Of a stretch of 52,618 bases of DNA, positions 17,537-43,696 are shown piece by piece. Below the pieces are notes generated by a model. The model ran no database searches, had not been told where the DNA came from, and saw only the letters and a program-made list of their open reading frames with translations. How positions within the stretch are numbered: position 1 is the first letter of the stretch; each line of letters begins with the position of its first letter. The stretch is from a bacterium. GTDB lineage: Bacteria > Patescibacteriota > Saccharimonadia > Saccharimonadales > Saccharimonadaceae. The stretch covers positions 1 to 52,618 of the forward strand of contig JAUIGB010000004.1 in NCBI GenBank assembly GCA_030429975.1. The letters are read 5' to 3'. The position numbers were made by a program, and so were the translations under genes.

Positions 17537-17620
17537 TATCAACTCCTGTCTTCCGCATTGTAAACGTACTTCAAATCTTGAAGTTGGGAATATTATGGCA
17601 TATTTTGCCTATAAATTCAA

Positions 17621-20935: not shown

Positions 20936-20953
20936 CGAAAATTGCGAATATAT

Positions 20954-23969: not shown

Positions 23970-23990
23970 GTTTTTTGTTATAGTGGGGGT

Positions 23991-26899: not shown

Positions 26900-26904
26900 A
26901 GACA

Positions 26905-26961
26905 GAAAACCCCGCGACCATCGGCGCGGAGCTTCTGCTCGACGTTGTCGATAGTGCGGGG
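26905..26961 (-). terminator. terminator of two-gene cassette
   Basis: Stem ACCCCGC / GCGGGG with a structured loop; on the minus strand it is followed by GTTTTCTGTC. The 3' part is almost identical to the terminator of the cassette at 35133-35651 (shared minus-strand strings GAGCAGAAGC and CCGATGGTCGCGGGGTTTTC). Confidence 0.8.
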
Positions 26962-26962
26962 A

Positions 26963-27115
26963 TTAGTGACTGATGCCCATTGTCAGCGTGTCTCTCTGAT
27001 AGCGAAGAGTGCTCTGGTGGCGTTGCCGCCCGCTGATCTCTCGCATATCGCGTATGGCCAACCACGCCGACCCTACGATTACACCCAATAGCGTCATAAT
27101 CACGACTGCTAACAT
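26963..27115 (-). CDS. 50-residue membrane protein, second gene of cassette
   Basis: A short gene: ATG at 27115 preceded by AGGAGG five nt upstream, stop TAA at 26963 directly before the terminator stem. The product has an N-terminal transmembrane helix (MLAVVIMTLLGVIVGSAWLAI) and a basic, polar C-terminal half (RDMREISGRQRHQSTLRYQR...). It lies 25 nt downstream of the 132-residue cassette gene on the same strand, so the two form an operon. Function unknown; the strong ribosome site and position support a real gene. Confidence 0.7.
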   Translation of the reverse strand: MLAVVIMTLLGVIVGSAWLAIRDMREISGRQRHQSTLRYQRDTLTMGISH

Positions 27116-27140
27116 GTTTTCCTCCTGTTCGAGCGCTGGC

Positions 27141-27539
27141 CTAACGAGCCATGTACCACACTTCGTTGATCTTGACGGCTTCGATATGGGTGAAGCGGTG
27201 TGGACTGTAGATCATGTCATTGGGTCTGAGCGATATCGCAAAAGCCTGTGGCTTCCATCTGGCGCCTATAGACGGATCGACATAGGCGAATCCAACCAGC
27301 GACCATCCGCCGTTACTATTTGGAATCTCGGCACCAACTTGCCACATGCGATACTGGTTACCCAGTTCGTCGGCGACCAGTTGATCGTCAATCCATTTCC
27401 CGGAGTCGAATCGGAAGTTACCCCCTGTTACGATGCGGTACTCGGTGTGCCTGTCGCCATTTTTGGTGCGGTCGATAATCAACAGATTGCCGTTCGCCAG
27501 TTCACCCACGAACCAGGGTTTATTCGGTACTTCGGACAT
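27141..27539 (-). CDS. GC-rich cassette protein, unknown
   Basis: 132 residues, soluble, beta-rich and tryptophan-rich (PWFVGELANGNLLIIDRT, GKWIDDQLVADELGNQYRMWQVG, GGWSLVGFAYVD, VWYMAR). No family recognised. AAGAGGTGG precedes the ATG (27539), and a TTATAGT box lies about 45 nt upstream of the start. First gene of a two-gene cassette with the 50-residue membrane protein. Confidence 0.68.
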   Translation of the reverse strand: MSEVPNKPWFVGELANGNLLIIDRTKNGDRHTEYRIVTGGNFRFDSGKWIDDQLVADELGNQYRMWQVGAEIPNSNGGWSLVGFAYVDPSIGARWKPQAFAISLRPNDMIYSPHRFTHIEAVKINEVWYMAR

Positions 27540-27656
27540 GTGTCCACCTCTTTTCAGTAGCTCGTCCGTTATGTTTACTATAACATAAAATTATATTACC
27601 CACAAATAAACACCCCTATGCTTTTGTATTCGGTCGTGTAAATATATACTATCGAT

Positions 27657-28250
27657 ATGGGTAGTGCTGAAACGGGCGGATATGGTGAAATCAGCCCTGC
27701 TGACTTTGGCGAGCCTACAGAATCTACACGCGAGACGTTAGCGAATACGCTAGAACGACTAAAGAATTTGACCGTTGGCGTTCCTTACGAACACGTAATT
27801 CGTATCGGCGACCATATCATTGAACGACCACCCTTGCCTGATGGGCTGGGCCCTATTACGCAGTATGAATATGATCAAATTCGTGATCCCCTATTCGACC
27901 CCGAGGAAGAAACCGATTTTGGTTTTCGCATACTAGAGGCTAGTGACGAAACTTTTTCCGACTGGTTTGCACTCCAGGGGCAAGAAGAAAAAATCTACGA
28001 AGTCTATTACAAGGATGGTATTATCGACATCCATTACGCCTATTGGCCTAGTACCGAAGAACTAGATATATCCGACTATATGCAGATTGACGCAATGCCC
28101 GGAACGCCAGAATGGCGAGAGCAACTATTGGCGATGATTCGATCCGTCGAAGAGCCTATCGAAAACGGCGCGAACATACCGACCGAAGGCTCCATGAAGC
28201 ATCTGATAGCCGTGCTAGAGCAAGAGATCGCCAAACGCTATACCGAATAG
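27657..28250 (+). CDS. hypothetical acidic protein
   Basis: 197 residues, strongly acidic, soluble, unrecognised. The middle holds ERPPLPDGLGPITQYEYDQIRDPLFDPEEE and a beta-rich stretch (KIYEVYYKDGIIDIHYAYWP); the C-terminus is helical. The ATG sits 6 nt after TATACT (27645-27650), the leaderless arrangement. Native composition. No functional clue from the neighbours. Confidence 0.75.
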   Translation: MGSAETGGYGEISPADFGEPTESTRETLANTLERLKNLTVGVPYEHVIRIGDHIIERPPLPDGLGPITQYEYDQIRDPLFDPEEETDFGFRILEASDETFSDWFALQGQEEKIYEVYYKDGIIDIHYAYWPSTEELDISDYMQIDAMPGTPEWREQLLAMIRSVEEPIENGANIPTEGSMKHLIAVLEQEIAKRYTE

Positions 28251-28260
28251 CATACAGCTA

Positions 28261-28289
28261 TTGCTTTTTATAGCCATTAGTGTTATAAT
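28261..28289 (+). promoter_or_regulatory. promoter of cassette gene B
   Basis: TTGCTT (28261-28266), 17-nt spacer, TATAAT (28284-28289). Leader of about 45 nt with ACAGGAG before the ATG at 28341. Confidence 0.7.
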
Positions 28290-28340
28290 AGTACATAGCC
28301 GTAAGGTAGTGTAGTTCACAACTAGAGAACAGGAGCCATC

Positions 28341-28841
28341 ATGGCGACCATCAAGGACCTCGATACCATCGAGCGCGTCATGCCCGAGTGGGCCGACCAG
28401 ATCAACGAAGGCACCAGCGTCGACGAGCCGAGCACCTGCCGACCGATCAACACGATCGCCAAGCTGGTGTACGCCGACTGCGCGGTCCTGAACGTGTACG
28501 CGCCCACGGACATCGTCCTGGCTCATCCGATCGCCGCTTTCGTGCTGTTGCTGTCCGCCGACGTTCAGATTGTCGATCCCGGCGTCCGCGCCATCTACGA
28601 CAACTGGATGGTCGAGGCCGCTCAGGGCGGAAAGAACGTCTTTCCCGCCCGCATGACCGAACGTCGCTTCGCCGTCATGTTCGCCGACGCTCCCAGCGTT
28701 CCGCGGAACTTGCGGGGCGAGATGCTGGACCTGCAGGTCATGCCGAGTCGGTATGTCAGCGAGAACGACGCCCACTTCGGTGACGTCCGCGTCGTCCGGC
28801 GCGATGGCACACCGACCCAAGGCCTCAGCACCTGGTTCTGA
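28341..28841 (+). CDS. GC-rich cassette protein B (paralog of 12959-13384)
   Basis: 166 residues, soluble, unrecognised. Aligns with cassette protein A over most of its length: INTIAKLVYADC with MATIEAAIYIDG, IVLAHPIAAFVLLLSADV with VVLMHPEQAHCLLACDSV, FAVMFADAPSVPRNLR with FEVAFACAPDVPESLR, and a shared ending (GDVRVVRR / DDVRMARY). It has extra N-terminal and C-terminal residues. Own promoter, Shine-Dalgarno and terminator; GC-rich. The conserved HP, IVD and APxVPxxLR blocks probably define a new small family. Confidence 0.75.
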   Translation: MATIKDLDTIERVMPEWADQINEGTSVDEPSTCRPINTIAKLVYADCAVLNVYAPTDIVLAHPIAAFVLLLSADVQIVDPGVRAIYDNWMVEAAQGGKNVFPARMTERRFAVMFADAPSVPRNLRGEMLDLQVMPSRYVSENDAHFGDVRVVRRDGTPTQGLSTWF

Positions 28842-28864
28842 TTCACTCCCATCTACAGGCGAAC

Positions 28865-28892
28865 ACCGCGTACCTCCGGGTACGCGGTTTTT
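28865..28892 (+). terminator. terminator of cassette gene B
   Basis: ACCGCGTACC-tccg-GGTACGCGGT followed by TTTT. The stem is the same as the core of the terminator after paralog A (12897-12929). Confidence 0.9.
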
Positions 28893-28901
28893 CGTTGCCC
28901 T

Positions 28902-29282
28902 CTAGTCGTTAATTGATTCCAAAATCTCTGGTAAATCAGCTGGTAGTATGTCGGCTTTTATAATATATCCGTCAGCCCCATGATCCATGGCGTTGTCTGC
29001 TACGCTATGCTGGGCCAGATTTGTTAGTACTAATATGTTAGCCTGCGTGCAGCTGAATGATGCGTCGTTACGCAGAAACTGCAGAACCTCTAATCCCGTC
29101 TCCCCTGGTAACATCACGTCCAGCAATACGTATGTTGGTTTGAAGTTAACTAGCTTTTCCCTAGCCTGTGCCCAGTTGCCAGCTAACTCCACGGTATATC
29201 CCGCGCCTCGAAGAGCTTTTTGGTACAGGTCACGAAGCATTGGTTCGTCCTCAATTATTAGTACGTTTTTTGAACCATCCAT
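28902..29282 (-). CDS. response regulator, receiver domain only (pair 1)
   Basis: 126 residues: a single receiver (CheY-like) domain with the acidic pair EDE near residue 11, phosphoacceptor Asp55 (YVLLDVMLPG), Thr in VLTN and the conserved Lys in GYIIKADI. No output domain, so it must act by protein contact. The ATG lies inside the 3' end of the kinase gene (32-nt overlap; GAGAGGAC upstream), ensuring coupled synthesis. Close paralog of 40355-40789. Confidence 0.93.
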   Translation of the reverse strand: MDGSKNVLIIEDEPMLRDLYQKALRGAGYTVELAGNWAQAREKLVNFKPTYVLLDVMLPGETGLEVLQFLRNDASFSCTQANILVLTNLAQHSVADNAMDHGADGYIIKADILPADLPEILESIND

Positions 29283-31503
29283 GGCGTCCTCTCGATACGT
29301 TTTGGGTTACTAGCGCGTCGTCGCGTTCTGGTAAGTATACAGGAAGCGTGAAGTAAAATGCTGAACCACCTCTGCCCTGATCCGGGGATATACCTATCGT
29401 TCCACGCTGTAATTCAATAACGGTTTTTGATATAAACAAACCTAACCCTGTGCCTCGCGTTCCGGTAATCATGCTACGTTCGGCGCGATAGAACTTAGAG
29501 AAAAGTTTTTCGCGTAATTCTTCGGGGATACCAGGTCCGTTATCAATCACCTCCACCCTGGCTTCGTCACTAGTGGCGGTGATGTTTACTCGTATTTGTC
29601 CGCCATCCGGTGTGTATTTTATAGCGTTGCCGATGAGATTGTTCAGAACTTCCGTGATAGATGCTGGGTCGGCGGGTACGTATACATTGTGATTAATACT
29701 AGAAGTGAACGACAGCACTTGTCTCTTTTGGGCGGCGATTTGTTGGTGTTGTTCTACGTTCGTCGCGGTCATTTGTGTTAGGTTCAGTTTGTCTAGGAAT
29801 ATTTCCATATCGCCACGTTCGATACGAGCGATGTTTAGTAGTTTGTTGATTAGCTCGCGTAATTGCTGAGTGCCGATTATGGCGTTTTGTAGGTCTTCGA
29901 TATTCTCTGTTGATAGACTATGAATAGCTTCGCGGTTTATCACGTCTAGATACCCGGATATAACGGTCAAAGGTGTACGAAGTTCGTGCGCCGCGATTGC
30001 TACGAAATCTAGTTTCATGAAATCTAGTTCGCGAGTGGCTGTTTGGTCATGCATGGTTATGATAGCTGCTACGCTCTCATCTTCTCTCTCATTGACTTGA
30101 ACAATTAAGTTCATGTATTGAACCGACTCACCTTTTGCCAGCACCACGCCCTCATAGGATTTAGTTCCTGAATAGCCGATATCTAGGTTTAGTGGCCTGC
30201 CGTCTATTGTCCACGGAAATATTTCCGACAGTGGACGTCCTACGAATGGAGGCTCGACGTGGTTCACTATTCTGGTTGCCGATGGATTGATGGACACTAT
30301 TTCTTGCCTCGCGTTAATGGCGATTATTCCATCGTTTACGCTATTTATGATGCTTTGTAATTGTGATTGTCCAAAACTGAGATTGCTGTTGTTCGCCTGT
30401 AAGCTATTGATATAAGTGCTAATGTTGGCGCCTAAGCCGTTGAGCGTTTCTGACATTTCCCGAAACTCGTCGTTTGTTTTTACGTCGATTGGCTGACTAT
30501 AGTCGTTTTTTGATAATCGCCTGATACCATCGAGCAGGCTTTTTACGGGGCTGGCTATTCTCCATGTAAACAAGATGCTCGCCAATACCGTAGAGACAAC
30601 CATTACTATAGCTACTGTAATCGCCGTCAGAATAAAGGACATATATGCGCCGTTCACACTACTAACGGGTTGTTCAACTATCACGCTCCAACCGACATCG
30701 GTCAGACTGGCATTCGCCAAAACGTCTTGTTTTTCAGCGGATATCGTTTGCTTCGTCTCGCCTTCTCCGCCAGCGAAACTTCTCACGCTCTCTACGGTGC
30801 TAAAATCGTTTCTGATTGTCAATGTTGTTTCGTCTGGGTGGTAAACTAATTGATTGTCGGTGTCGACGACATACATCTTTTCGTCGCTATCTAACTCTGG
30901 TAGTATGGATTTCCATGTTTCATCCGTCGTTTGATAGTATCCAATAATACTACCTAGTAGACGATTAGTAGTAGACGTCGAATCATAGACAGATATACCT
31001 ATAGTGATTAGTGGTCTGTTGTTCACGTCACGGGATACGTCAATTAATTGACGTTCGTTATCCATCAAGCTCAGTCCCTGGTTATTGCTGGAATTATCAG
31101 ACGATGGCAACGTAGAAGACGCGATACGAATACCATCGCTCCCTCTCGTAGCAGTTCGTAATGTGCGATCTAGCGTCAAAAACTCTACTTTTTGTAGGTC
31201 GGTATTATTTGACATTAAATTTTTTAGTTGTGGCTCTAACTGATCGGGCGCCAAGCTGAATTGTGACGCAGATAATTCTAACTGTGAGATGAGCGAGTCA
31301 ATATATCTGTCAACTTGTCGGGCTCCATCCGACGATAACCTCTGCTGGTTAGATGCCGCGCTTTTTAGAAGTGGCTCGGTACCGGCATTGGTCAATATGA
31401 CACTAACGATGATGACAGGCAACACAGCAATAGCCAAAAAATAGCTAAGTACACGGGTCGATACTTTGCGCCTATAAGACGACTGTTTTTTCTCCTCACC
31501 CAT
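29251..31503 (-). CDS. membrane sensor histidine kinase (pair 1)
   Basis: 750 residues: TM1 (about 19-38), an extracytoplasmic Cache-like sensor (about 40-285), TM2 (about 289-313), HAMP (about 314-367), PAS (about 380-490), HisKA with phosphoacceptor His506 (VAIAAHELRTPLTV) and HATPase with N box NLIGNAIKYT, DNGPGIPEEL and GTGLGLFISK. It phosphorylates the overlapping receiver protein. The ligand is unknown. Paralog of the kinase at 40758-43076, with the same domain order and the same C-terminal GWFKKRT motif. Confidence 0.95.
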   Translation of the reverse strand: MGEEKKQSSYRRKVSTRVLSYFLAIAVLPVIIVSVILTNAGTEPLLKSAASNQQRLSSDGARQVDRYIDSLISQLELSASQFSLAPDQLEPQLKNLMSNNTDLQKVEFLTLDRTLRTATRGSDGIRIASSTLPSSDNSSNNQGLSLMDNERQLIDVSRDVNNRPLITIGISVYDSTSTTNRLLGSIIGYYQTTDETWKSILPELDSDEKMYVVDTDNQLVYHPDETTLTIRNDFSTVESVRSFAGGEGETKQTISAEKQDVLANASLTDVGWSVIVEQPVSSVNGAYMSFILTAITVAIVMVVSTVLASILFTWRIASPVKSLLDGIRRLSKNDYSQPIDVKTNDEFREMSETLNGLGANISTYINSLQANNSNLSFGQSQLQSIINSVNDGIIAINARQEIVSINPSATRIVNHVEPPFVGRPLSEIFPWTIDGRPLNLDIGYSGTKSYEGVVLAKGESVQYMNLIVQVNEREDESVAAIITMHDQTATRELDFMKLDFVAIAAHELRTPLTVISGYLDVINREAIHSLSTENIEDLQNAIIGTQQLRELINKLLNIARIERGDMEIFLDKLNLTQMTATNVEQHQQIAAQKRQVLSFTSSINHNVYVPADPASITEVLNNLIGNAIKYTPDGGQIRVNITATSDEARVEVIDNGPGIPEELREKLFSKFYRAERSMITGTRGTGLGLFISKTVIELQRGTIGISPDQGRGGSAFYFTLPVYLPERDDALVTQNVSRGRHGWFKKRTNN

Positions 31504-31607
31504 TCTCTATTATGTTAATGCTTTTAACTACATATGTCGAGGTATTGAAATACAATAGCCAACGGTTTACTATGCGATGCTTTTAGAGTTGTGATATTAT
31601 CATGCTT

Positions 31608-32885
31608 ATGAACAACGACTCTAGTCAAAACCCTAATAATTTGAATTCACCTGCCCCGGGTTCACCCGAGAATAACTACGGTCCAATAGAACCCCCAAGT
31701 CCACCAAAGAAAAAGAAATGGTACAAAAAGAAAGCAGCGTGGCTAATAACAGTATTAGTATTGTGTCTACTCTCTGGTGGTGGCCTATATGCGTACTATC
31801 TATCAACGCAAAAAGACGTCGCCACATCAAATGACTCGTCCGCGCAACCAAAAACGGAACCACAAAAAGAACTGGTTCCGAATAACTTGCTTTATGTAAC
31901 GACGAAGTATACAGACGGTGACACTTGTTCCATGAACGAGGAAACTGTGCATGGTGTTTCGTTGGCTGATAACGAGTCAAAAAAAGTAACGACTATAGAA
32001 GATTATCAATCAGTCGTACAATATAGCACTCACGAAGACAAAATAGTGATTGCTACGGACTCTTCATGCGCCAGCAGTGAAGGGCCTGCCCTGCTGTACA
32101 GTAGTGATGGCGGTGCTAGCTTCGAAAAAATATTTGAAGGAGAGTCGCTAGGGGACGTGGTCGCCGATCAGATAACCGGTGTGACTTTTTCAAGTGATGG
32201 CAACAGTATAGTTTTCGGATACCTACCGAATGATTCACGAAAAAATACCGCGAAATTAATCGATGTCAAGACACGGGACGTGAATGATTTGTTCACTATC
32301 GATGACGCGGGGCTGTTTCCCGTGGCATATGATGGGAATAAACTACACTACTCCTCTGGTTGCTACAACTGTGGCGGTGGCAAAATCGGAATTAAAACGT
32401 ATGACATGACAGATGATAAACATGTCGCATTATTCAGTGCGGATACGGCAATCGGCTATGACATCTCGCTCAATCCCAAACAAAACAAAGCTCTGCAGCT
32501 GATAAATATAGGTAATAATAACTACCAGATAGTAGAGTTTGAGGTCGCGACAAAAAAACAAGCAACAATAGTAGAAATCAGTGGCGTGAGCGGCGGTAAT
32601 CCCCGTGCGGGATATAGTGACAGGGGCGTCGTATATTACACGAAAGACAGCTCGTTCTATCTATTTAACGACGGCGAATCCGTAAAGATGTTTGACGCGC
32701 CTGACCCTATTTCAAACGTTTATTATGTTGGCGATGGAAAAATAATATATAGTACAGGAACCCAGGAAGGTGGTACCGTGTATATATACGACATCGACAA
32801 TACCCAAGAATCATCGAAAGTCTATGACTATGAATACCCTGGTAGAATACTGGGCATCACTGCGAAGTTCGAAACGGTAGAGTAG
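31608..32885 (+). CDS. membrane-anchored extracellular beta-propeller-like protein
   Basis: About 425 residues. A Pro/Asn-rich N-terminus, a Lys cluster (KKKKWYKKKAAW), one transmembrane helix (about 45-65) and a Ser/Thr-rich linker lead to a large beta-rich domain with WD/TolB-like repeats (SSDGGASFEK, TFSSDGNSIVFGY, YDGNKLHYSS, NPKQNKALQLI). A CYNCGGG segment may bind metal or form a disulphide. ATG 31608 is favoured over 31602 because TATTAT ends 7 nt upstream. Divergent from the kinase gene. Probably a surface protein; function unknown. Confidence 0.8.
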   Translation: MNNDSSQNPNNLNSPAPGSPENNYGPIEPPSPPKKKKWYKKKAAWLITVLVLCLLSGGGLYAYYLSTQKDVATSNDSSAQPKTEPQKELVPNNLLYVTTKYTDGDTCSMNEETVHGVSLADNESKKVTTIEDYQSVVQYSTHEDKIVIATDSSCASSEGPALLYSSDGGASFEKIFEGESLGDVVADQITGVTFSSDGNSIVFGYLPNDSRKNTAKLIDVKTRDVNDLFTIDDAGLFPVAYDGNKLHYSSGCYNCGGGKIGIKTYDMTDDKHVALFSADTAIGYDISLNPKQNKALQLINIGNNNYQIVEFEVATKKQATIVEISGVSGGNPRAGYSDRGVVYYTKDSSFYLFNDGESVKMFDAPDPISNVYYVGDGKIIYSTGTQEGGTVYIYDIDNTQESSKVYDYEYPGRILGITAKFETVE

Positions 32886-32930
32886 CGCCCATATAAACAC
32901 GATCCGTATATCGTGCTATGGTGAGTATAT

Positions 32931-33506
32931 ATGTATACAAAAACCCATATCATCTACATACCTGGATTTGGCGCCAAGTATGATTGGCTGAGGTCTTTTA
33001 TACTAAGCAAGTGGCGCTTTAAGGGTATTACTGTTGATATGGTGCCGATGAATTGGCATGAAGGCACGTTTGATCAAAAAATGAACGCGATTAATAAAGC
33101 CGTAGACCGCGCAAAAAGCAAAAGGATCGTACTGATTGGCGAAAGCGCCGGAGGAAGCATGGCAGTTCACATGTATGCGCATAGACCAGATGATTTGAGC
33201 GGTGTCATCACGCTGTGTGGCAAAAACATCCTTCCCGAAACCGTTCAGCAACGGTATATAGATAATTCACCCGCGTTTGGCGTGTCTATGAAAAACCTCA
33301 ACAATTCCATCAAGATGATACCTGCGGTTAATAGAAGTAAATTCGTGTCGGTCTATCCCATCTACGACCCCGTAGTGCCTGTTAACGAAACATTATTACC
33401 TGGTTGCCGTCGAAAAAGACTTTTGCTGGTTGGTCACGTCTCGGTAATCTTCATAACGATTACTGTTCTGGCGAAAGTGTTAGTGAGTGTAGCGAGAAAA
33501 ATTTAA
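32931..33506 (+). CDS. alpha/beta hydrolase fold protein
   Basis: 191 residues. HIIYIPGFGAKYDW (oxyanion region), nucleophile elbow LIGESAGGSMAVHMYA (G-x-S-x-G), Asp in YPIYDPVVPVNE and catalytic His in LLVGHVSVIF complete a plausible triad. The short length resembles small RBBP9-like or lipase-like hydrolases. The C-terminus past the His is basic and hydrophobic. Substrate unknown. A -10-like TATGGT lies 8 nt upstream of the ATG. It converges on the GNAT gene with one base between stops. Confidence 0.85.
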   Translation: MYTKTHIIYIPGFGAKYDWLRSFILSKWRFKGITVDMVPMNWHEGTFDQKMNAINKAVDRAKSKRIVLIGESAGGSMAVHMYAHRPDDLSGVITLCGKNILPETVQQRYIDNSPAFGVSMKNLNNSIKMIPAVNRSKFVSVYPIYDPVVPVNETLLPGCRRKRLLLVGHVSVIFITITVLAKVLVSVARKI

Positions 33507-33507
33507 C

Positions 33508-33972
33508 CTATTTTTGTATTGCATACACCGTACAAAAACGGTGTTGCTTTCGACCGGCTATATCATCCAGTTTTTTATACTCACTCGCGGGTTTTAGATG
33601 TTCATAACCCAGGCTACGATAAAAACCACTATTCATACGACCGTCGGTTAGAGCGAATAAGGTTTCGCCTGTTTCTACAACCTGGTTATAGACCCCCTCG
33701 GCCAAGGCGCGTCCAATTCCCTGTCTGCGAGCATCCTTGTTCACGCATAAGGTCATGAGGTATACTCTGTTCTCTCGGCCGGCATATCCGACACAGCCCA
33801 TCATCGCCATTGAACCCATATCCCGCGCCGCCAACCAACCGGCGCAATCTTCCGCCCCTTCAAAGCTCAGCTTGCTGTTGTGACTCACGAAATTTTCCAG
33901 CTCGTTCACGACGTCATCGTTTAAGTCGGTAGTCGCGGGAAGGAACTCTAATAGCGTCTGATGCTCGGGCAT
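33508..33972 (-). CDS. GNAT family N-acetyltransferase
   Basis: About 154 residues from ATG 33972 (MPEHQTLLEFL); an upstream in-frame start at 34044 would lie inside the preceding gene. GNAT fold: DMGSMAMMGCVGYAG (beta4), RVYLMTLCVNKDARRQGIGRALAEGV (acetyl-CoA binding Q/RxxGxG/A) and a final SGFYRSLGYE. Transfers acetyl from acetyl-CoA to an amine; substrate unknown. It follows the 205-residue gene 4 nt downstream, so co-transcribed. Confidence 0.9.
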   Translation of the reverse strand: MPEHQTLLEFLPATTDLNDDVVNELENFVSHNSKLSFEGAEDCAGWLAARDMGSMAMMGCVGYAGRENRVYLMTLCVNKDARRQGIGRALAEGVYNQVVETGETLFALTDGRMNSGFYRSLGYEHLKPASEYKKLDDIAGRKQHRFCTVYAIQK

Positions 33973-33976
33973 AACT

Positions 33977-34591: not shown

Positions 34592-34660
34592 CACATATTC
34601 CCGTCTATACCATTACTATAACATAATAATGGTATATGTAAATTATGATAAATCTTGGTG

Positions 34661-35032: not shown

Positions 35033-35086
35033 GCTAATAATTATAACTATTTTCTATGAAATTACACATAGTTTTAAAAACAGAAA

Positions 35087-35141
35087 ACCCCGCGACCATC
35101 GGCCGCGAAGCTTCTGCTCGGGTTTCCGATGATCACGGGGT
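35087..35141 (-). terminator. cassette terminator overlapping the end of the gene
   Basis: Arms ACCCCGCGACCATCGG (35087-35102) and CCGATGATCACGGGGT (35126-35141) form a long imperfect stem; the minus strand continues GTTTTCTGT. The 5' arm includes the last codons and the stop of the gene at 35133. Near-identical 3' sequence occurs at 26905-26961. Confidence 0.8.
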
Positions 35142-35651
35142 AACGGATTCTTGCTGGTCGATGAGTTTCTGCAGGCGCGCTATTTCAGCGCGTAGCCGAT
35201 TGCAGTTTCTGGCGGCGTACTCGGCGGCATGCATGGGGGCGCAGGCCGCTTCCCACTGGCTCGTGGCCAGTTCTTCCCTGGCCTTCTTCAACTGCTCTTC
35301 AAGAGTCAGCTCGATGAAGACGGCGTCCCTCAACTGGTCGTCGATGTTACGATCTAGATCGATTATCTGAACGCAAGTGCCGTCCATGCTGCCATCGACC
35401 AGGTGGACCCTTCTTGACAGCTCCTGTTCGTTATCGAGGTAAAAAGGAAATACCTCTTCGAAGCCGTTGTCGTAGAGGTTGTGCTGGTGCACCACCAGGA
35501 TGTGCTTGCTACCCACCTCTTTGGCGTCTTGAATCCAGCCTTCTACTTCGTCACGTGACACCTTGGGTACTCGCCTTGCGCTGCCACCACGGACTTCGTC
35601 CGGGAAAGGACTTAGGTCCTGCGTGAACAGGTTCTTCAACCATCTCAGCAT
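35133..35651 (-). CDS. GC-rich cassette protein, unknown
   Basis: 172 residues, soluble. The N-terminal half is mixed (DEVEGWIQDAKEVGSKHILVVHQHNLYDNGFEEVFPFYL, then HLVDGSMDGTCVQIIDLD). The C-terminal half is helical and probably a coiled coil (LTLEEQLKKAREELAT, LRAEIARLQKLIDQQ). Not recognised. A TATAGT box lies about 75 nt upstream, and GAAGGA precedes the ATG. Single-gene cassette. Confidence 0.68.
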   Translation of the reverse strand: MLRWLKNLFTQDLSPFPDEVRGGSARRVPKVSRDEVEGWIQDAKEVGSKHILVVHQHNLYDNGFEEVFPFYLDNEQELSRRVHLVDGSMDGTCVQIIDLDRNIDDQLRDAVFIELTLEEQLKKAREELATSQWEAACAPMHAAEYAARNCNRLRAEIARLQKLIDQQESVTP

Positions 35652-35771
35652 TGTTAATCCTTCGTTCTCTGATGAGGCAGAGAAAAAACCTATGCCGATC
35701 CAACAGGGATGGCGATATCTTGACTATACCATAAAACATTGCAAAACGGTAGTACTTATGCTATAATATAT

Positions 35772-36227
35772 ATGAATATGAGGAGTCCCGAAATAGCGTT
35801 TGCGGATCAGAATATGATGCTGGTCGATGACAGGCATCTGCAAACACGTATCGTGACCGCCGATAGGGACAAGACAAAGGTTTCGCCAGATGAACTACAT
35901 CAGATTCTGACCGTTGGCAATTCGGCGATTCGTAGCCAGATAGAGTCAATATATCAACGTAATTACCGACCCGATGCCGAAATCTATAGACCTTCCATAT
36001 GGGTCGCGCAAATGATAGCGAAACGACATGATGATAGTGTGGCTTATAGCGAACTAGGTCTGGCCGAAAACACTGGCATACTCAGCACTCCACTTGGTCT
36101 GAATAATCCATATCGAGAATACTGGAATGCTATTCGCGAATCCGGTTTTGTTGCCGAGGCTCGTAGAAGTTATAGTGGCAAGAATGCAGGCGCGTGGCTG
36201 TTGGCTAGGGTTGACCCTACTCCGTAG
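35772..36227 (+). CDS. hypothetical protein
   Basis: About 151 residues from ATG 35772 (or 35778). Soluble; DKTKVSPDELHQILTVGNSAIRSQIESIYQRNYRP is helical, and the rest is mixed. Unrecognised. A TATAAT box at 35762-35767 ends 4 nt before the first ATG and 10 nt before the second, so the transcript is leaderless or nearly so. The stop abuts the stop of the convergent DUF348/3D gene. Confidence 0.7.
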   Translation: MNMRSPEIAFADQNMMLVDDRHLQTRIVTADRDKTKVSPDELHQILTVGNSAIRSQIESIYQRNYRPDAEIYRPSIWVAQMIAKRHDDSVAYSELGLAENTGILSTPLGLNNPYREYWNAIRESGFVAEARRSYSGKNAGAWLLARVDPTP

Positions 36228-37103
36228 TTAGCGTCCGTCTGGATATGACCAGTCCGTGGCAAGGTCAAATCCATGGGGATATCGCAGAGCGAATCCGCCG
36301 GTATCATATATCTTACCGGGTCCCATGCTAGTTTCGACTATCGAGCATCTCGGGTAAATACCGTAATTCGCGGCGACTAAAACATATCCGTCTTTGTCTA
36401 CCTTCGCGCCATCGACGGCGCGTATCGTATAACTGTTATTCGCCCCGCAGTGATTTATGACAATATTCATCGGTAGGTCATAATATGTTTCCCGATGGGC
36501 GACTCCGTCGCTATCTACATATATTTGCGCCCCTTTGGACTTGGTCAGTGCGTTGGGTTTTGGTTGAAAGACGACCTTGCTTGGTTTTACTGACTTTCGC
36601 TTGATTGTGAGTATTGTACTGGCGCCATCCTTTACAAAGTCCCCTGTGGTAAAGGTTGCCTTATCGAGGTTGCCTATTTTGTCCAGACCGGCGAGTTTCA
36701 CTATCTGTCTAGGGGTAGCCTCTGCGGTTACTACCTTTTGCCGCACCTGTCCGTCGATGACTAATACTGGTCGCGATCTGTATATGATAATAGCCGGGTC
36801 GGTGTCTAGTAATTCGCTGTTTATAGACGGTTCTACTACATCCTGCGGGGCTATTGGTATCTGGGCGTCATCTAGCGCTTGACGTACTGTTTTGGCGTGC
36901 GTTAACACTACCCTTTCTTCTCCGCGATCAAAAAATGTCACCAATCTACCTATTTGTGATGATTGAATACTATCGGCTACTATGTACGCAACAGAGATCA
37001 CGCCAACCATGACAAAAAATACGGACACGGCTATTAATAATCTTCGATGTGTTTTTCGTAATTCGCGAAGTTTTTTTAGTCGCTTGCGCCTAGACCGTTT
37101 CAT
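36228..37103 (-). CDS. DUF348 / 3D-domain cell-wall protein
   Basis: 291 residues: a basic cytoplasmic N-terminus, TM (about 21-44), a DUF348 ubiquitin-like domain (about 54-105: VRQALDDAQIPIAPQDVV) with a second related region (TPRQIVKLAGL) and a C-terminal 3D double-psi barrel (about 205-285) with IYDTGGFALRYPHGFDLATDW, holding Asp residues that give the fold its name. YabE/Rpf-like proteins of this type act as lytic transglycosylases on peptidoglycan. A role in wall remodelling is plausible. Confidence 0.85.
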   Translation of the reverse strand: MKRSRRKRLKKLRELRKTHRRLLIAVSVFFVMVGVISVAYIVADSIQSSQIGRLVTFFDRGEERVVLTHAKTVRQALDDAQIPIAPQDVVEPSINSELLDTDPAIIIYRSRPVLVIDGQVRQKVVTAEATPRQIVKLAGLDKIGNLDKATFTTGDFVKDGASTILTIKRKSVKPSKVVFQPKPNALTKSKGAQIYVDSDGVAHRETYYDLPMNIVINHCGANNSYTIRAVDGAKVDKDGYVLVAANYGIYPRCSIVETSMGPGKIYDTGGFALRYPHGFDLATDWSYPDGR

Positions 37104-37136
37104 AGGTTAATAATATCAGAAACGCTTATATTTACG

Positions 37137-37385
37137 TTAGCCTCTGGCTATACGCACTACTACTCCGCCTGCGATAGTGTACCTAAGGCGCCGATAGTTC
37201 ACGTCATTGATGTCAGGATATACCATGCTAGTTTCCGATGATGGTTCGGTTTGCCATCCATTGTCACGGGCACGGCTCAGGAACTCGTTTTCTTGTAGTC
37301 CAAAGTAACTATACATTTCGCCTAAAACTCTCTGCATGCTGCGTACGTCTGGACCTGACGTGTTTTGAGGTAGGTGGTTGCTCAT
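37137..37385 (-). CDS. hypothetical small protein
   Basis: 82 residues from ATG 37385 (MSNHLPQNTSG). A GAATAT box ends 6 nt upstream; the longer frame to 37430 would overlap the methyltransferase gene. Soluble, with VRSMQRVLGEMYSYFGL helical and RRLRYTIAGGVVVRIARG beta-rich. Not recognised. It lies between the methyltransferase and the 3D-domain gene on the same strand. Confidence 0.65.
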   Translation of the reverse strand: MSNHLPQNTSGPDVRSMQRVLGEMYSYFGLQENEFLSRARDNGWQTEPSSETSMVYPDINDVNYRRLRYTIAGGVVVRIARG

Positions 37386-37396
37386 ATTACTATATT

Positions 37397-38161
37397 CTAA
37401 CAGTTCTTTTTTATGGGCGCATATTGCCAAGAGTTACCGTTCATTTGATATTCCATAGAGAACGCGGACTTTGCCAGCCTAGTGGACGTCCTAGTCGCCA
37501 CTATATCCACGAAATTAGCACCGTGTCCAACGTCTTGACTCGAGCTGATTGACACTTCGGCGAAGCCGGCCCGAATCGTCAAATCCCTAACGGTTTCTAT
37601 GTCTAGTTGACTAGCGTCGCGTCCTGCTGGCTTTACACCCTTTCCTAGGGGGAAGTTTTCGACGGCGATCGTACCGCCCGGTAGTATTTTGTCGTACGCT
37701 TGTTCTAGCGTGCCCAATGGGTCTATTAGTAGCCAAAAAGTCTTGTTACTAATAACTAGATCGTAACCATTCAGCAAACCCTCTACGTTAGATAGTCTTT
37801 CTGCATTACCCACTACGTAGTTTTCTTTGCGTATCTTTTTTGTCATGGGATATTCGTCGGTATGATAATCGTATATTGATAATGCCTGGGCTGCGTGACC
37901 CATTTCTTGGGCCATGAGAACGAACGCGCCACGAGCTGCTCCAATATCTAATATCCGTAGATTCTCGCGTGAACCTATAAGTTCGGCCGCGGATACTGAT
38001 TTACTCTTTTCTGTTTTAAAGCGACACTCGCTAGTCTTTCCTTGATACTCGTATCGACGCCCATCATTTTGTGACTGCTTTTCATGTATATCAATCAGCT
38101 GGTTAATCCATACTGGTCGTCGTTCGTGTAGGGGTAGTATATCGCCGCACTCTGTCATCAT
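37397..38161 (-). CDS. class I SAM-dependent methyltransferase
   Basis: 254 residues. Rossmann-type methyltransferase with motif I ILDIGAARGAFVLMAQ, post-I acidic SIYDYH, motif II/III region GYDLVISNKTFWLLIDPLGTLEQAYDKILPGGTIAVEN and a late GFAEVSISSSQD. Such enzymes methylate small molecules, lipids, nucleic acids or proteins; no feature points to a substrate. Native composition. Confidence 0.85.
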   Translation of the reverse strand: MMTECGDILPLHERRPVWINQLIDIHEKQSQNDGRRYEYQGKTSECRFKTEKSKSVSAAELIGSRENLRILDIGAARGAFVLMAQEMGHAAQALSIYDYHTDEYPMTKKIRKENYVVGNAERLSNVEGLLNGYDLVISNKTFWLLIDPLGTLEQAYDKILPGGTIAVENFPLGKGVKPAGRDASQLDIETVRDLTIRAGFAEVSISSSQDVGHGANFVDIVATRTSTRLAKSAFSMEYQMNGNSWQYAPIKKNC

Positions 38162-38207
38162 GAGCTCTGAGTAATTAATACCATGTAATTAGATATTTAT
38201 CAAATAA

Positions 38208-38246
38208 GCATTTCGCTCCGGGTCATCGACGACCGGAGCGAAATGC
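38208..38246 (-). terminator. terminator of cassette gene
   Basis: GCATTTCGCTCCGG / CCGGAGCGAAATGC, a perfect 14-bp stem; the minus strand continues TTATTTG. The sequence between stop and stem (minus strand GCTCCGCGTCATC) recurs after the cassette at 43191-43619. Confidence 0.85.
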
Positions 38247-38271
38247 TGCGGAAACGATGACGCGGAGCGCG

Positions 38272-38547
38272 TCAGCTCTGTTGGTTGGAAACGGTGGTCG
38301 TCAGTCGGGCACGCCTTTGGTGCTCTGTTAACTTTTCCTGGTACTCGGGTGAGCTCTGGAGCTCGGTCAGGGTGATGTCGCCTTTGCGCGGTAGAAAGCC
38401 GAACATGCGAGCGATACGTTCCGTGACCCCATTCGCGTTCAGTACGGCATAACAGAGGACGGCAACTGGTATGACCAGAGCCATCAGGCCGAGCGTTCCC
38501 GCGAAACCTGCCGTTATGCCAATTCCTCCACCTACGAGAAATTCCAT
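38272..38547 (-). CDS. GC-rich cassette membrane protein, unknown
   Basis: 91 residues: an N-terminal Gly-rich membrane region (MEFLVGGGIGITAGFAGTLG and ALVIPVAVLCYAVLNANG, two helices) and a basic, polar C-terminal half (RKGDITLTELQSSPEYQEKL...). Unrecognised. GGAAGG precedes the ATG by about 7 nt, with an AT-rich promoter region upstream. Own terminator; single-gene cassette. Confidence 0.66.
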   Translation of the reverse strand: MEFLVGGGIGITAGFAGTLGLMALVIPVAVLCYAVLNANGVTERIARMFGFLPRKGDITLTELQSSPEYQEKLTEHQRRARLTTTVSNQQS

Positions 38548-38629
38548 GGTAGTTACCTTCCTAATGTGCTGAATCTAGACTATTGCCCAGACCCCGTCAT
38601 TTAATAACTATGACCTCCGGATGTCAACT

Positions 38630-40291
38630 TTAATGAGGTAGTTGTTGTGGACGCGAGAATTGATTCACTGACTGCGTTGGCACGTTCTGCTGGATTGGTT
38701 GCGCGGGTGCTCCGCTAGATGACGGCATAATGACTTTTTTGAAAGGCTGGCTTGCAACGGCTGATCGAACTTGACTGATTTGAGGAGGGCCCGACTGTAC
38801 CTGGGCTGCAGGTGGCGTAGGTGCGACTGGCACCCGTTGCTGTGTTGCCGCGGTCGCTTGTTGCACCGGATTGACCTGCGGCGTGGCGGTCGTTGGCCTT
38901 GCGACTTGTTGCGTGACATTTGGTGTCTTTGGTGCTTGGTTGTTTGGTGCGGTTGCAGCGACGGGATTTGGCGCGCTAGGAGCAGTCGTCTGTGGTGGCA
39001 ATTGCTGTGCCATAGGAGGAGGAACGCCAGGCTGGGTGGTAAGAGAGGTATTGTTTTGCGCAGTGGGTTGGGAAGGTTGGGTTGGCGTCAGCATAGTGTA
39101 GTTGCCGGATGAACTTTCAATGACCGATCCAGACATCACTCCTGGTAAGTATGTTAGATGCCTAGATGGCACATCAAATACCGCGTCTTCTATTGCAGCT
39201 CTTCTTTGATGACGTCTAAACAGCCACAATCCTATAATGCCCCCTATTACAGCCAGTCCCGCGCCCGCTATCGCTATGAATGCCGGGCTAAACGTAAACA
39301 TTGCTCCAGGCAGTTTTACCTCGACAACTTCGCCAAAGTTTTCCGTACTTAGGTCTAGGTCTTTACTAATCGTTCTTCCTTGATACGATACACTTATGCT
39401 ATGACCTCCGGTCAGCACGTTCGAGAACACAACTCTACCGTTTTCATCTGTTTTTTGTTTCTCGCCACCGTCTAGGGTTACTTCCGCGTTTGGAACTATC
39501 TTCCCGTTTTCATCACGAACCAATATAGCCAAAGGCACCACCGACAATTCGTCGCCGTTTACGACTTCACCATTATCGTCTACGACTATGTCCTTTGGCT
39601 GGTCTTCGTTTTTGCTGTCTTTAGAAGTATCTTTTTTATCATCAGATTTCGATCCTGGTTTTTTTGAACCACCAGAGCTCCCAGTGCCTCCACTTCCGGT
39701 ACCGCCCCCTCCACTACTGCCACCACCGTCGTCGGGTGTTGGTGACGGTGAAGTAGACGGGCTTGGCGATGGTGATGGCGATGGATCCGGATCGGGTGGA
39801 TCGGGCGTAGCCGCGGTAATTGGAATGGTCGCTAGTGTCTTGCTGAAGTTACAAACAACGTTCCCGTATCCCTGTACTACTGTAGTAGATTTTTTCAGCT
39901 TTATAACCACGTTACCACCTGCATTACCACTGGCAGTATGAGACCAGTTGGGATAATGACCCACATAAGTACTGTGGCCTGTGGTAGGACTAGGGTTGGT
40001 GTAGGCAAAGTTTTGGGAATAATTTGGTGATGATGTGTTCGTCGCGGTCATTTCAAATACCGATGAAGACACGTTGAAACGATAGCTTTTTGCTGGCTGC
40101 ACAGATATACCTGTAACCGTGAAATTTTGTCCCTCTTCTACGCTATTAGGAACTGTCGCCTTAAAGGTGACGGTTACGTTACAAAACTCCGTTTGGGTTA
40201 CAGCACCGGCAACAACTGTTGATGGCGCAGAAAACAAACTCGACAGAGCAAGTATTGGTAGGAATATGGCAATGATGATGTTTTTTTGCAT
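38630..40291 (-). CDS. large surface-anchored protein with Cna-B-like domain and Gln/Pro-rich tail
   Basis: 553 residues: signal peptide (1-29, cleavage near VVAGA), an N-terminal beta domain (30-160), a Pro/Ser then Gly/Ser/Asp/Lys low-complexity linker (163-235), a carboxypeptidase-regulatory or Cna-B-like beta domain (250-325: IVPNAEVTLDGGEKQKTDENG), TM (336-358), a basic stop-transfer (FRRHQRR) and an intracellular tail of about 190 residues rich in Pro, Gln, Thr and Ala. Probably a cell-surface stalk or adhesin. The tail is unusual for a surface protein and could contact cytoplasmic partners. Confidence 0.82.
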   Translation of the reverse strand: MQKNIIIAIFLPILALSSLFSAPSTVVAGAVTQTEFCNVTVTFKATVPNSVEEGQNFTVTGISVQPAKSYRFNVSSSVFEMTATNTSSPNYSQNFAYTNPSPTTGHSTYVGHYPNWSHTASGNAGGNVVIKLKKSTTVVQGYGNVVCNFSKTLATIPITAATPDPPDPDPSPSPSPSPSTSPSPTPDDGGGSSGGGGTGSGGTGSSGGSKKPGSKSDDKKDTSKDSKNEDQPKDIVVDDNGEVVNGDELSVVPLAILVRDENGKIVPNAEVTLDGGEKQKTDENGRVVFSNVLTGGHSISVSYQGRTISKDLDLSTENFGEVVEVKLPGAMFTFSPAFIAIAGAGLAVIGGIIGLWLFRRHQRRAAIEDAVFDVPSRHLTYLPGVMSGSVIESSSGNYTMLTPTQPSQPTAQNNTSLTTQPGVPPPMAQQLPPQTTAPSAPNPVAATAPNNQAPKTPNVTQQVARPTTATPQVNPVQQATAATQQRVPVAPTPPAAQVQSGPPQISQVRSAVASQPFKKVIMPSSSGAPAQPIQQNVPTQSVNQFSRPQQLPH

Positions 40292-40354
40292 GTTTTTATT
40301 TTTTTCAGTGCCTGCTAACAGTTTAGCATAAGAGTAATATACGTGTCTAATTTT

Positions 40355-40789
40355 TTATAATTCCGAATCAGACTCGGAATTTTGTTCTGATTTTGAGTGC
40401 TTTTCGTCGGTTTCTTCTAGAGAACGGACGACTGTAGGCAAGTCTTTCGGTAGTATGTCTGCCTTTATTACGTATCCGTCTGCCCCATGTTCCATGGCGT
40501 TGTCCGCAACATTACGTTGCGCTAGATTCGTGAGTATAATGATTTTCGTGTTCATGCACCCGTGCTTAGGATTAGTTCTTAGTTCGTTCAGTATCTCTAG
40601 GCCGGACGCGCCAGGCAACATAATATCTAAAAACATTACGTCTGGGCGGAAGTTTGGCAGCTTGGCATAGAGCTCATTGGCGCTATCGGCGACTTCTACT
40701 AAATAATGAGCGTCAGCCAACGCCAAGCGATACATATCGCGAATCATTACATCATCTTCAACTAGTAGTACGTTTCTTGAACCAGCCAC
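40355..40789 (-). CDS. response regulator, receiver domain only (pair 2)
   Basis: 144 residues: a receiver domain like pair 1 (EDD near 11, phosphoacceptor Asp55 in VMFLDIMLPG, IILTNLAQ, Lys in GYVIKADI) plus an acidic/polar tail of about 20 residues (EETDEKHSKSEQNSESDSEL). No output domain. The ATG lies inside the kinase gene with the same 32-nt overlap as pair 1. Close paralog of 28902-29282. Confidence 0.93.
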   Translation of the reverse strand: MAGSRNVLLVEDDVMIRDMYRLALADAHYLVEVADSANELYAKLPNFRPDVMFLDIMLPGASGLEILNELRTNPKHGCMNTKIIILTNLAQRNVADNAMEHGADGYVIKADILPKDLPTVVRSLEETDEKHSKSEQNSESDSEL

Positions 40790-43076
40790 GAACCCCTCCT
40801 TGTGCGTTTTTTGCTACTTTTTCGTCATCTCTTGCAGGGTCATAAATCGGCAGCGTAAAGTAGAATACCGAACCGTGACCCTGATCTGGTTCTATGCCTA
40901 TTTGACCGCCTTGCAGCTCAATGATTGTTTTGGATATGAACAAGCCTAGTCCCGTGCCCTTACTGCCGGCTATCAAGCTCCGTTCGGCTCGATAAAATTT
41001 CGTGAACAACCTACCCCGCATATCATCTGGAACTCCCGGACCATTATCTTTTATCTCGACGCGAACAAACTCGCCTACGGATGTCATACTGACCTTTACC
41101 TCGCCCCGCTTTGGCGTGTATTTTAACGCGTTACCGATCAGGTTGTTTAGCACCTCGACTATCGAAGCGGTGTCTGCTGGAGTATATATGTCGCCATTTA
41201 ATGTGGTGCTGTATGTAATCTTTTGCTCTTTTTGATCTGCGACTGGTTGGTGTTGTTCTACGTTTTCTTCTACTAGTTTTGAAATATTTAGTTTTTCTAT
41301 GAATATCTCCATGTCACCGCGTTCGATACGGGCTATATTCAAGAGTTTGTTAATTAATTCCCGCAACTGATTGGCGCCGACCATGGCTTTTTGTAAGTTT
41401 TCGAGCTGGAATACGTTCAACTGGGTCGCCGCGCTGGTATTGAGAATGTCCAAGTAGCCTCGAACGACTGTCAGCGGCGTACGCAGCTCGTGGGCAGCAA
41501 TCGCTACGAAATCTAACTTCATAAAGCTCAATTCTCGGCTCTCTGACTGGTCATGGATTGTTATTATCGTCGATACATTGCCCGTTTTGTTTTCCAGTAC
41601 AGAAACCATAATATCTACATAAACGACGCTTCTATCGTTTTTCAATGTCAAATCTTTGTATTGCTGAGTGCCTACGGTCTCTAGGTCTGGGGTGAACGGT
41701 TTTTCGTCGTGTTCCCATTTAAACACTTCGGAGAGCGGTTTGCCGTCGATATTCATCGGTTGCAAGCCAATCATTTTCGCGGCCGGTGGATTGGACGATA
41801 CGATTTCGCCTTTGCTGTTTAGGGCTACGACACCGTCACTTACACTGCTAATAATGTTATTCAACTTTGCCTGTTCTACTAGCAAACGCATATTGTTGAC
41901 CTGCAGGTCGCCAATTAGTTTTTTAATACTCATACCCATTCGGTTAAATGTATTAGCCAGGTCTTGTAGTTCATCTTTTGTCTTTACTTCTATGGTATGT
42001 TCAAACTCTCCTCTGCCTAGTTGCCTAGCTCCCTCTGAGAGTTTACGTATAGGCCTTACTAGTTGTCGGCTAAAGAACAATCCGGCCAAAATAGACAGAA
42101 TGATCGCGCTTATACCGATAGTTGCAGCCATCTGAATGAAAGAGTTTACACTTGCATAGATACTAGATACAGGCTCTTGAACGATCACGCCCCACTTTGT
42201 TAACGTTTCTGCTGGCGTGCTAACAACCTCCACGTTCTTTTCGGATAAACTTGCACCAGTATCTCTGTTCCCGCCAATAAACTGCTTGACAGCTTGGGTT
42301 TGTTTTAATTCCGTGTGAGAAAAGAGGAATTTGCGGTCTGGATGCGCGACCAATTCGCCCGTATTCGTTACGACGTATGCGTATCCTCCGTCCCCTATTT
42401 TTGATGATATTACGGATTCTAGCATGGCGCCCGCGTCGTAATAACCAGCTATAACGCCTATCATGTCCTCGGACTGCTTTGCCACCTGTGAAACAAAGAG
42501 CCCGCCGGTAGGATCGCTATATTCCCTCAGGATAGGAATTGCTATACCAATCTGAGAATTATTTTGGGCATCACGAGCTACTGTTATCAGGAACTGTTTT
42601 CCTAACAAAAAGTTTAAGGCACCTGTTTGATCTCCGGACTCATCGTCTGACACCGTGGCCGTAATGGTGTCGTCCGATTGACGCACTAATTCCGTACGTT
42701 TGCCGTCTTGGGTCAGAAATGTCAGATTCTTTAGCGTTGCAGTTTGGTCAAACAGTATACGCAGGTTTTCAGCCAGCTCGTCATCGTCAAGTTGTTCATT
42801 CGAAAACTGCCGACCCTGTAGATCTAATAAGTTTATATTGTTGGCAAGATAGTTATCTACGCGGCGAGCCATGTCTGTCGCGACCGCTTCTTGTTTTTCA
42901 CTGGCATTTTTTAGCAACTGATCATTTGCCGCCGTAACCAGCACGTAGCTAACGGTTATTAGGGGCACAAGACCAATAAGCACAAAGTTGATAAAAACTT
43001 TTGTTGATATCTTACCTCTAAAGATGTGCGTTATTCTACGCAAAAACCTCCCACGATCAGAAGATGCGTCACCCAT
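40758..43076 (-). CDS. membrane sensor histidine kinase (pair 2)
   Basis: 772 residues with the same order as pair 1: TM1 (about 29-48), Cache-like extracytoplasmic sensor (50-305; FLTQDGKR, YAYVVTNTGELVAHPD are typical dCache strings), TM2 (about 313-336), HAMP (337-390), PAS (402-515), HisKA with His529 (VAIAAHELRTPLTV) and HATPase (NLIGNALKYT, DNGPGVP, GTGLGLFISK). The sensor region is diverged from pair 1, so the two pairs probably detect different signals, while the kinase core and C-terminus are conserved. Confidence 0.95.
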   Translation of the reverse strand: MGDASSDRGRFLRRITHIFRGKISTKVFINFVLIGLVPLITVSYVLVTAANDQLLKNASEKQEAVATDMARRVDNYLANNINLLDLQGRQFSNEQLDDDELAENLRILFDQTATLKNLTFLTQDGKRTELVRQSDDTITATVSDDESGDQTGALNFLLGKQFLITVARDAQNNSQIGIAIPILREYSDPTGGLFVSQVAKQSEDMIGVIAGYYDAGAMLESVISSKIGDGGYAYVVTNTGELVAHPDRKFLFSHTELKQTQAVKQFIGGNRDTGASLSEKNVEVVSTPAETLTKWGVIVQEPVSSIYASVNSFIQMAATIGISAIILSILAGLFFSRQLVRPIRKLSEGARQLGRGEFEHTIEVKTKDELQDLANTFNRMGMSIKKLIGDLQVNNMRLLVEQAKLNNIISSVSDGVVALNSKGEIVSSNPPAAKMIGLQPMNIDGKPLSEVFKWEHDEKPFTPDLETVGTQQYKDLTLKNDRSVVYVDIMVSVLENKTGNVSTIITIHDQSESRELSFMKLDFVAIAAHELRTPLTVVRGYLDILNTSAATQLNVFQLENLQKAMVGANQLRELINKLLNIARIERGDMEIFIEKLNISKLVEENVEQHQPVADQKEQKITYSTTLNGDIYTPADTASIVEVLNNLIGNALKYTPKRGEVKVSMTSVGEFVRVEIKDNGPGVPDDMRGRLFTKFYRAERSLIAGSKGTGLGLFISKTIIELQGGQIGIEPDQGHGSVFYFTLPIYDPARDDEKVAKNAQGGVRGWFKKRTTS

Positions 43077-43134
43077 TACCTTATTATGCTAACGTTTTTT
43101 CCCTGATAACACAAGCTTTTTCAGATAAAAAGAA

Positions 43135-43160
43135 TGCTCCGGTCACCAACGACCGAAGCA
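43135..43160 (-). terminator. terminator of ASCH cassette
   Basis: TGCTCCGGTC / GACCGAAGCA imperfect stem; the minus strand continues TTCTTTTTATC. Related to the terminator at 38208-38246 (shared GCTyCGGTCGTyGrTGACC pattern). Confidence 0.8.
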
Positions 43161-43190
43161 AACTTTTTGCTGGTTGTTGATGACGCGGAG

Positions 43191-43619: not shown

Positions 43620-43696
43620 CTCAGGTCTCCTTATTAAAAAAGAGCGACAAATTTTGCCACTCATCAAACTATATCACATCTGTGATAACAAGGAAA

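Follow-up and report, generated by a model that had tools for sequence, protein, structure and literature searches.

Rho-independent (intrinsic) terminators are GC-rich hairpins followed by a run of U's behind the stop codon. In E. coli, a translating ribosome represses such a terminator almost completely when the latter lies a few bp behind the stop codon; its full efficiency is reached beyond ~27–30 bp (PMC4824070). Here, we describe the 3′ ends of small, GC-rich genes on contig JAUIGB010000004.1 of a bacterium of the Saccharimonadaceae (assembly GCA_030429975.1; 1.02 Mb in 38 contigs). This entire contig of 52,618 bp was analyzed and is called the window hereafter. Several of its 3′ ends share the hairpin and the U-run with intrinsic terminators but bear three arms—giving two mutually exclusive hairpins with a common 3′ arm—the first of which is located on the stop codon.

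In ribosome-controlled attenuators such as the trp and pyrBI leaders, the position of the ribosome selects between competing RNA stems. A similar selection might take place at the 3′ ends described here, which likewise combine two mutually exclusive stems with one arm within ribosome reach at a fixed codon. Unlike these attenuators, they are located at the 3′ end of the gene instead of the leader, and both stems are predicted to be able to end transcription in most copies. The genes themselves are reminiscent of phage morons—single genes with their own promoter and terminator and a deviating GC content, placed between conserved genes—yet they reside on a bacterial chromosome, the proteins tried have no relatives in phage collections (PHROGs, IMG/VR, and INPHARED), and at least one of these cassettes is probably common to several species by vertical descent. 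A single gene followed by a structured 3′ element also makes up the attC-bearing cassettes of integrons; in contrast to these, the cassettes of the window are scattered, occur in both orientations, bear their own promoters, and have a U-run after the element. No integrase or array was seen beside them, whereby no genome-wide search for an integrase was made. The notable part of the present system is the three-arm design straddling the stop codon and its concentration on orphan cassettes; as such, it is a variant of known terminators. With moderate confidence, we read these 3′ ends as terminators that close accessory cassettes by one of two alternative stems, with the ribosome governing the choice and with the coding part exchanged in some cassettes.

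Three terminator pairs and the three-arm architecture of two of them

An earlier note on this DNA had pointed out three pairs of shared 3′ sequences, and all of them can be read directly in the window: 12897–12929 with 28865–28892 (pair 1), 26905–26961 with 35087–35141 on the minus strand (pair 2), and 38208–38271 with 43135–43190 (pair 3). By their sequence, all three qualify as intrinsic terminators, and the genes that they close are small, GC-rich, and mostly orphans. Behind each stop codon lies a stable GC-rich hairpin, the pair terminators are more stable than shuffled sequences (z −4.4 to −6.2), and each window copy has a U-rich run after at least one of its stems P1 and P2—weak after P2 in some copies. 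The hairpins, with families numbered like the pairs, are as follows:

12897–12929, minus strand: family-1 terminator of the 12959–13384 gene, single hairpin
28865–28892, plus strand: family-1 terminator of the 28341–28841 gene, single hairpin
35088–35140, minus strand: family-2 copy 1, stem P1, proximal hairpin of 15 bp with the TGA (35133–35135) in its 5′ arm; then TTTTCTGT
35081–35116, minus strand: family-2 copy 1, alternative hairpin P2 with a CAGA/UCUG base and its 3′ arm in common with P1; then TTTTT
26910–26961, minus strand: family-2 copy 2, stem P1, beginning 1 nt past the TAA (26963–26965)
26903–26937, minus strand: family-2 copy 2, alternative hairpin P2
38215–38268, minus strand: family-3 copy 1, stem P1 (GCTCCGCGTCATCG / CGATGACCCGGAGC), beginning 3 nt past the TGA (38272–38274)
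38207–38247, minus strand: family-3 copy 1, alternative terminator hairpin P2; then TATTT
43136–43191, minus strand: family-3 copy 2, stem P1, whose first base is the last base of the TAG (43191–43193)
43127–43168, minus strand: family-3 copy 2, alternative hairpin P2 with an AAAAAG/CUUUUU base
14110–14166, plus strand: another three-arm 3′ end, behind the 13561–14106 gene (P1 14110–14160, P2 14136–14166; p = 0.01–0.02)

Genome-wide statistics refer to 341 kb out of the 1.02 Mb, sampled as stretches, complemented by pattern and covariance-model searches of the whole genome. An all-against-all comparison of the 341 kb returned pair 2 with 93% identity over 46 bp (E 5e-8), and among 163 gene 3′ ends compared pairwise it is the best pair, scoring 41 against a null maximum of 19–24; judged by their sequence, its copies are homologous beyond doubt. 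Pair 3 shows 13/13 identical bases at the stop codon with a similarity that goes on through the hairpin, and scores 26, just over the same null maximum. A covariance model built from both of its copies (38208 and 43135; called R2) and run on 41 genomes returns exactly these two at E ≤1e-18. The homology of pair 3 is thus probable, although it is supported more weakly than that of pair 2.

The coding sequences in front of pairs 2 and 3 had been described as unrelated, and no similarity between them is detectable: a 50-codon membrane-protein open reading frame (ORF) faces a 172-aa protein in pair 2, and a 91-aa membrane protein faces an ASCH-domain protein in pair 3. The 50-codon ORF (26963–27115) falls under the 80-aa cut-off for ORFs and is the actual gene preceding 26905–26961. 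The arms of pair 1, AACACCGCGTACC, are identical over 13 nt, but their score of 21 does not exceed the null maximum (17–21), and the sequence alone is not significant. Its genes are paralogous (BLASTP 32% identity, E 2e-15), which suffices to account for the terminator that they share. In the genome G002, a homologue of the pair-1 genes shows this anatomy as well, although its hairpin differs in sequence.

In families 2 and 3, the 3′ end comprises three arms, whereby the first arms of both stems, P1a and P2a, are complementary to a single 3′ arm. P1 and P2 are mutually exclusive, since P1a—on or beside the stop codon—and P2a—15–30 nt further on—compete for this arm. We assessed the complementarity of the segment preceding a terminator to the 3′ arm of the terminator against shuffled sequence for every usable gene end of the 341-kb sample. 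At 35133, 38272, and 43191, it goes far beyond that of shuffled sequence (p ≤0.003). Within the own genome, third arms with p <0.03 are found behind 6/15 GC-rich cassettes and 1/45 ordinary genes (Fisher 6e-4); with p <0.01, these numbers are 4/15 and 0/45. The same scan on 271 kb of relatives blindly picked the gene end L059:11924 of the same-genus genome G008, which can be aligned by structure with family 3, and one end of a further family.

The three family-3 copies—those of 38272 and 43191 and that of G008—carry double compensatory changes at four P1 pairs and five P2 pairs in a structural alignment, while the GCTCC and CCGGAGC cores are unchanged. For family 2, reading by hand gives one P1 position at which both partners change (C-G to U-A) and further ones with wobble changes; none of the five known copies departs from the CGAGCAGA loop, while P1a varies. 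From these compensatory changes in the aligned copies, both mutually exclusive stems appear to be maintained. Among the roles proposed for the shared 3′ ends in the earlier note, that of an RNA element is supported, carried by the structured terminators, the conserved family-2 loop, and the compensatory changes in both family-3 stems.

All families are rare. Families 1 and 2 have two copies each in the genome and family 3 has two and one weak candidate. The objection that these might simply be the commonest terminators of the genome fails in the whole-genome search, since none of these tiny families exceeds two or three copies. Outside the own genome, family 2 has one significant copy each in G006, G008, and G009 of the same genus (E 1.5e-10, 1.8e-9, and 2.7e-7); the remaining relatives searched gave no significant hit. 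When 84,980 species were scanned by pattern, these three came up again, together with chance hits; all but three of the 39 pattern hits are unconvincing under the covariance model. In the relatives, the gene upstream encodes 294 aa in G006 and 96 aa in both G008 and G009, the latter two being homologous; none of them is related to either window gene. For family 3, the G008 site scores weakly with R2 (E 0.015), as does L013:4062 of the own genome (E 0.039); the latter (L013:4062–4128) might be a third family-3 element, located behind an ORF of doubtful coding status.

The further family picked blindly by the third-arm scan, family 4, reads ACCCCCGC...AGCACC...GCGGGGGTGCT in G008. The motif of this three-arm family can also be written ACCCCC...AGCACC...GGGGGTGCT; its sites are L064:4683 in G008 and L070:6370 and L070:6827 in G009. 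In G009, it stands behind two neighbouring ORFs, with a third-arm p of ~0.05.

A proposed ribosome-dependent choice of stems and its alternatives

The spacing of the arms suggests how such a terminator might work. Counted from the stop codon, P1 mostly begins between −8 and +13 nt and P2 mostly between +16 and +35 nt (for the 26963 copy, +1 and +25). If the first 12 nt past this codon are masked, the RNA is still predicted to form structures of −15 to −36 kcal/mol. A cassette would comprise a promoter, a leader of ~45–75 nt, a GC-rich orphan gene, and its own terminator—monocistronic and once with two genes. Its RNA would fold into either P1 or P2, never both. A ribosome on the stop codon would mask P1a and leave P2 free to form and terminate; without the ribosome, the more stable P1 would form. 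Termination might thereby be preserved in spite of the position of the terminator at the very stop codon. At 38272, 13561, and L070, P1 is not directly followed by U's, and termination would there depend on translation. A first arm at the stop codon and a second one beyond the reach of the ribosome would be a natural solution to the silencing of an adjoining terminator by the ribosome.

Several observations weigh against this. The support for P1 of family 2 is modest, with one clear and one partial compensatory position, and the family-3 pair table is a hand alignment of three sequences. The enrichment of third arms is not replicated in the relatives' sample, which held only three GC-rich cassettes with usable terminators; the two clear third arms found there stand behind ORFs of ordinary GC content at third codon positions (GC3), one of them doubtfully coding. 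About half of the GC-rich cassettes end in ordinary single hairpins. The spacing has exceptions in the G009 copy (P1 at +35) and in L007 (P2 at +9), and the U-tract after P2 is weak in G006, G008, 43191, and L007.

These 3′ ends could therefore be ordinary single long hairpins, with a third arm that simply results from their GC-rich, repetitive sequence and with the pairs left over from old gene duplications or local rearrangements—a possibility that we take seriously but regard as rather unlikely. Pair 1 with its paralogous genes is exactly of this kind, as are the many cassettes with single hairpins, and the one or two family-2 copies per genome would fit as well. Also, the G008 family-2 element lies directly before the homologue of the 36228 gene and not far from that of the 34661 gene, while the 35087 copy of the window lies between 36228 and 34661—the same neighbourhood, at another exact spot. 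On the contrary, ordinary genes rarely carry third arms, the compensatory changes between species affect both stems, and none of the tests made shows the coding sequences of pairs 2 and 3 to be diverged duplicates.

The earlier note had also considered the 3′ element as a recombination handle or an integration signal for inserting or swapping cassettes. We regard this as improbable, even though the same element stands behind unrelated genes. It had proposed a test for conserved break points at the cassette borders: the homology of the copies starts at the stop codon, and the promoters differ. Such a break is compatible with coding parts having been exchanged or replaced, for which recombination within the terminators is a possible route. 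A shared 5′ border was not found, promoters and 5′ flanks being without convincing similarity, and, hence, neither a handle nor an integration signal is supported. The two or three copies per family, the many different terminators on otherwise similar cassettes—including the G002 homologue—and the lack of a mobility gene in the cassettes examined point in the same direction.

The 38272 cassette speaks to both sides of this question. In G008, the gene end picked by the blind scan lies directly behind the homologue of the 38630 gene, matching the position of 38272 in the window, and belongs to a 77-aa membrane protein that weakly resembles the 38272 protein (E 0.001). The corresponding site behind the 38630 homologue of G009 is empty, as an insertion into the own genome and G008 might leave it. 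However, a likely orthologue of ordinary GC3 at the same place in G008 indicates that the 38272 cassette is at least partly vertically inherited, which is at odds with an integration signal. Since this likely orthologue has a GC3 of 0.43, a high GC3 alone is no proof of recent import.

With regard to the exchange of coding parts in our favoured reading, the families appear to differ. Gene and terminator appear to be inherited together in pair 1 and probably are so at 38272 and in family 4, while they appear uncoupled in family 2 and at 43191. An exchange of the coding part in the latter two would be the reason why unrelated genes now carry near-identical 3′ ends.

Another reading, to which we likewise give little credence, takes the 3′ ends as targets of an RNA-binding or stability protein of the ProQ/FinO or CsrA-like type, with the CGAGCAGA loop of family 2 as the site. 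Its invariance next to a varying P1a would fit, and ProQ/FinO proteins are a precedent for the binding of terminators (PMC12001967). Families 1, 3, and 4 are without this loop, though, and CAGA is already constrained as the base of P2. In Neisseria and Pasteurellaceae, identical hairpins behind unrelated genes act both as DNA-uptake signals and as terminators. The idea of such a double role here has this real precedent (PMC1852404) and type IV pilin-like genes in the window (15630–16214) on its side, but is refuted by copy number, with two or three copies instead of the expected hundreds or thousands and no 9–12-base k-mer behaving like an uptake signal in the 341 kb, and we attach practically no weight to it.

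The cassettes and their genus

About 12 small genes with a GC3 of 0.62–0.86 are dispersed singly between the ordinary genes of the window on both strands. The ordinary genes—ribosomal proteins, recR-, dnaX-, and cysS-like genes, and two-component systems, as named from their translations—mostly have a GC3 of ~0.3–0.6. Most of the GC-rich genes bear a recognizable −10 hexamer 43–80 nt before the start codon, in some cases extended, as well as a ribosome site rich in purines and a GC-rich terminator of their own; promoters were called by the −10 match only. The stablest terminator hairpins of the 341-kb sample are mostly those of GC-rich small genes. With their own promoter, their own terminator, and a deviating composition, these genes are moron-like cassettes in anatomy. 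Those connected to the terminators above are:

12959–13384, minus strand: 141-aa gene, GC3 0.84, paralogue of 28341; −10 TATAAT at 13449
28341–28841, plus strand: 166-aa gene, GC3 0.86, paralogue of 12959; −10 TATAAT at 28284
35133–35651, minus strand: 172-aa orphan gene, GC3 0.69, preceding family-2 copy 1; −10 TATAGT at 35728
27141–27539, minus strand: 132-aa orphan gene, first in a two-gene unit; −10 TATAGT at 27582
26963–27115, minus strand: 50-codon membrane-protein ORF, second in this unit, preceding family-2 copy 2
38272–38547, minus strand: gene for a membrane protein of 91 aa, GC3 0.62; G008 has a likely orthologue in the corresponding place (L059:11691–11924)
43191–43667, minus strand: 158-aa ASCH-domain gene, GC3 0.67, start probably at 43619; −10 TATAGT at 43673
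13561–14106, plus strand: 181-aa orphan gene, GC3 0.68, with a three-arm terminator at its end; −10 TATAAT at 13495

Nearly all of the GC-rich small genes are orphans in Pfam, PHROGs, and PADLOC. Pfam gave the ASCH domain in the 43191 protein only, and PHROGs and PADLOC gave nothing significant for the cassette proteins. The ASCH gene has no homologue among 150 other genomes of the family. No relatives were found in IMG/VR for the pair-1 protein family, the 35133 protein, or the family-2 motif, nor among INPHARED phage records by tblastn with the 28341 and ASCH proteins. An AlphaFold model of the pair-1 protein (predicted local distance difference test score, pLDDT, of 62) has no meaningful match in the PDB.

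One might go further and propose that this Saccharibacteria genus places translation-responsive, bistable terminators on the stop codons of orphan cassettes, and duplicates or retains them while the genes turn over—the terminator then being the lasting part. We put this forward tentatively and consider it doubtful in this general form. A 3′ end might outlast the gene that it serves, and such cassettes could help to understand how symbionts with very small genomes come to possess orphan genes and express them.

Further cassettes, repeats, and paralogues

Two neighbouring GC-rich membrane-protein genes with the common motif GPAIEQI (L007:2432–2812 and 2821–3258) form one cassette with a three-arm terminator. 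An acyl-CoA dehydrogenase-like gene in the window (16313–17542, GC3 0.69) is unexpected in Saccharibacteria; its homologue in G008 (62%; L108:6231–7442, GC3 0.54) lies near the family-2 locus and also has its own hairpin terminator. An Rfam search of the window returned the ribosomal protein L10 leader alone (RF00557, 14210–14354), which is located close behind a cassette terminator.

Apart from the cassettes, ~225 bp of apparently noncoding DNA (20714–20938) are 96% identical to G000:C28 1037–1260 (L021), and an inverted stretch related to them (67%) is found at 23934–24166. The commonest 11-mer of the 341-kb sample, ATCCATATGGA with 16 copies, stems from the palindrome ATCCATATGGAT, which is clustered in L018, L021, and L022. 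Finally, 28902–31503 and 40355–43076 encode paralogous histidine kinase/response regulator pairs with ~61% DNA identity.

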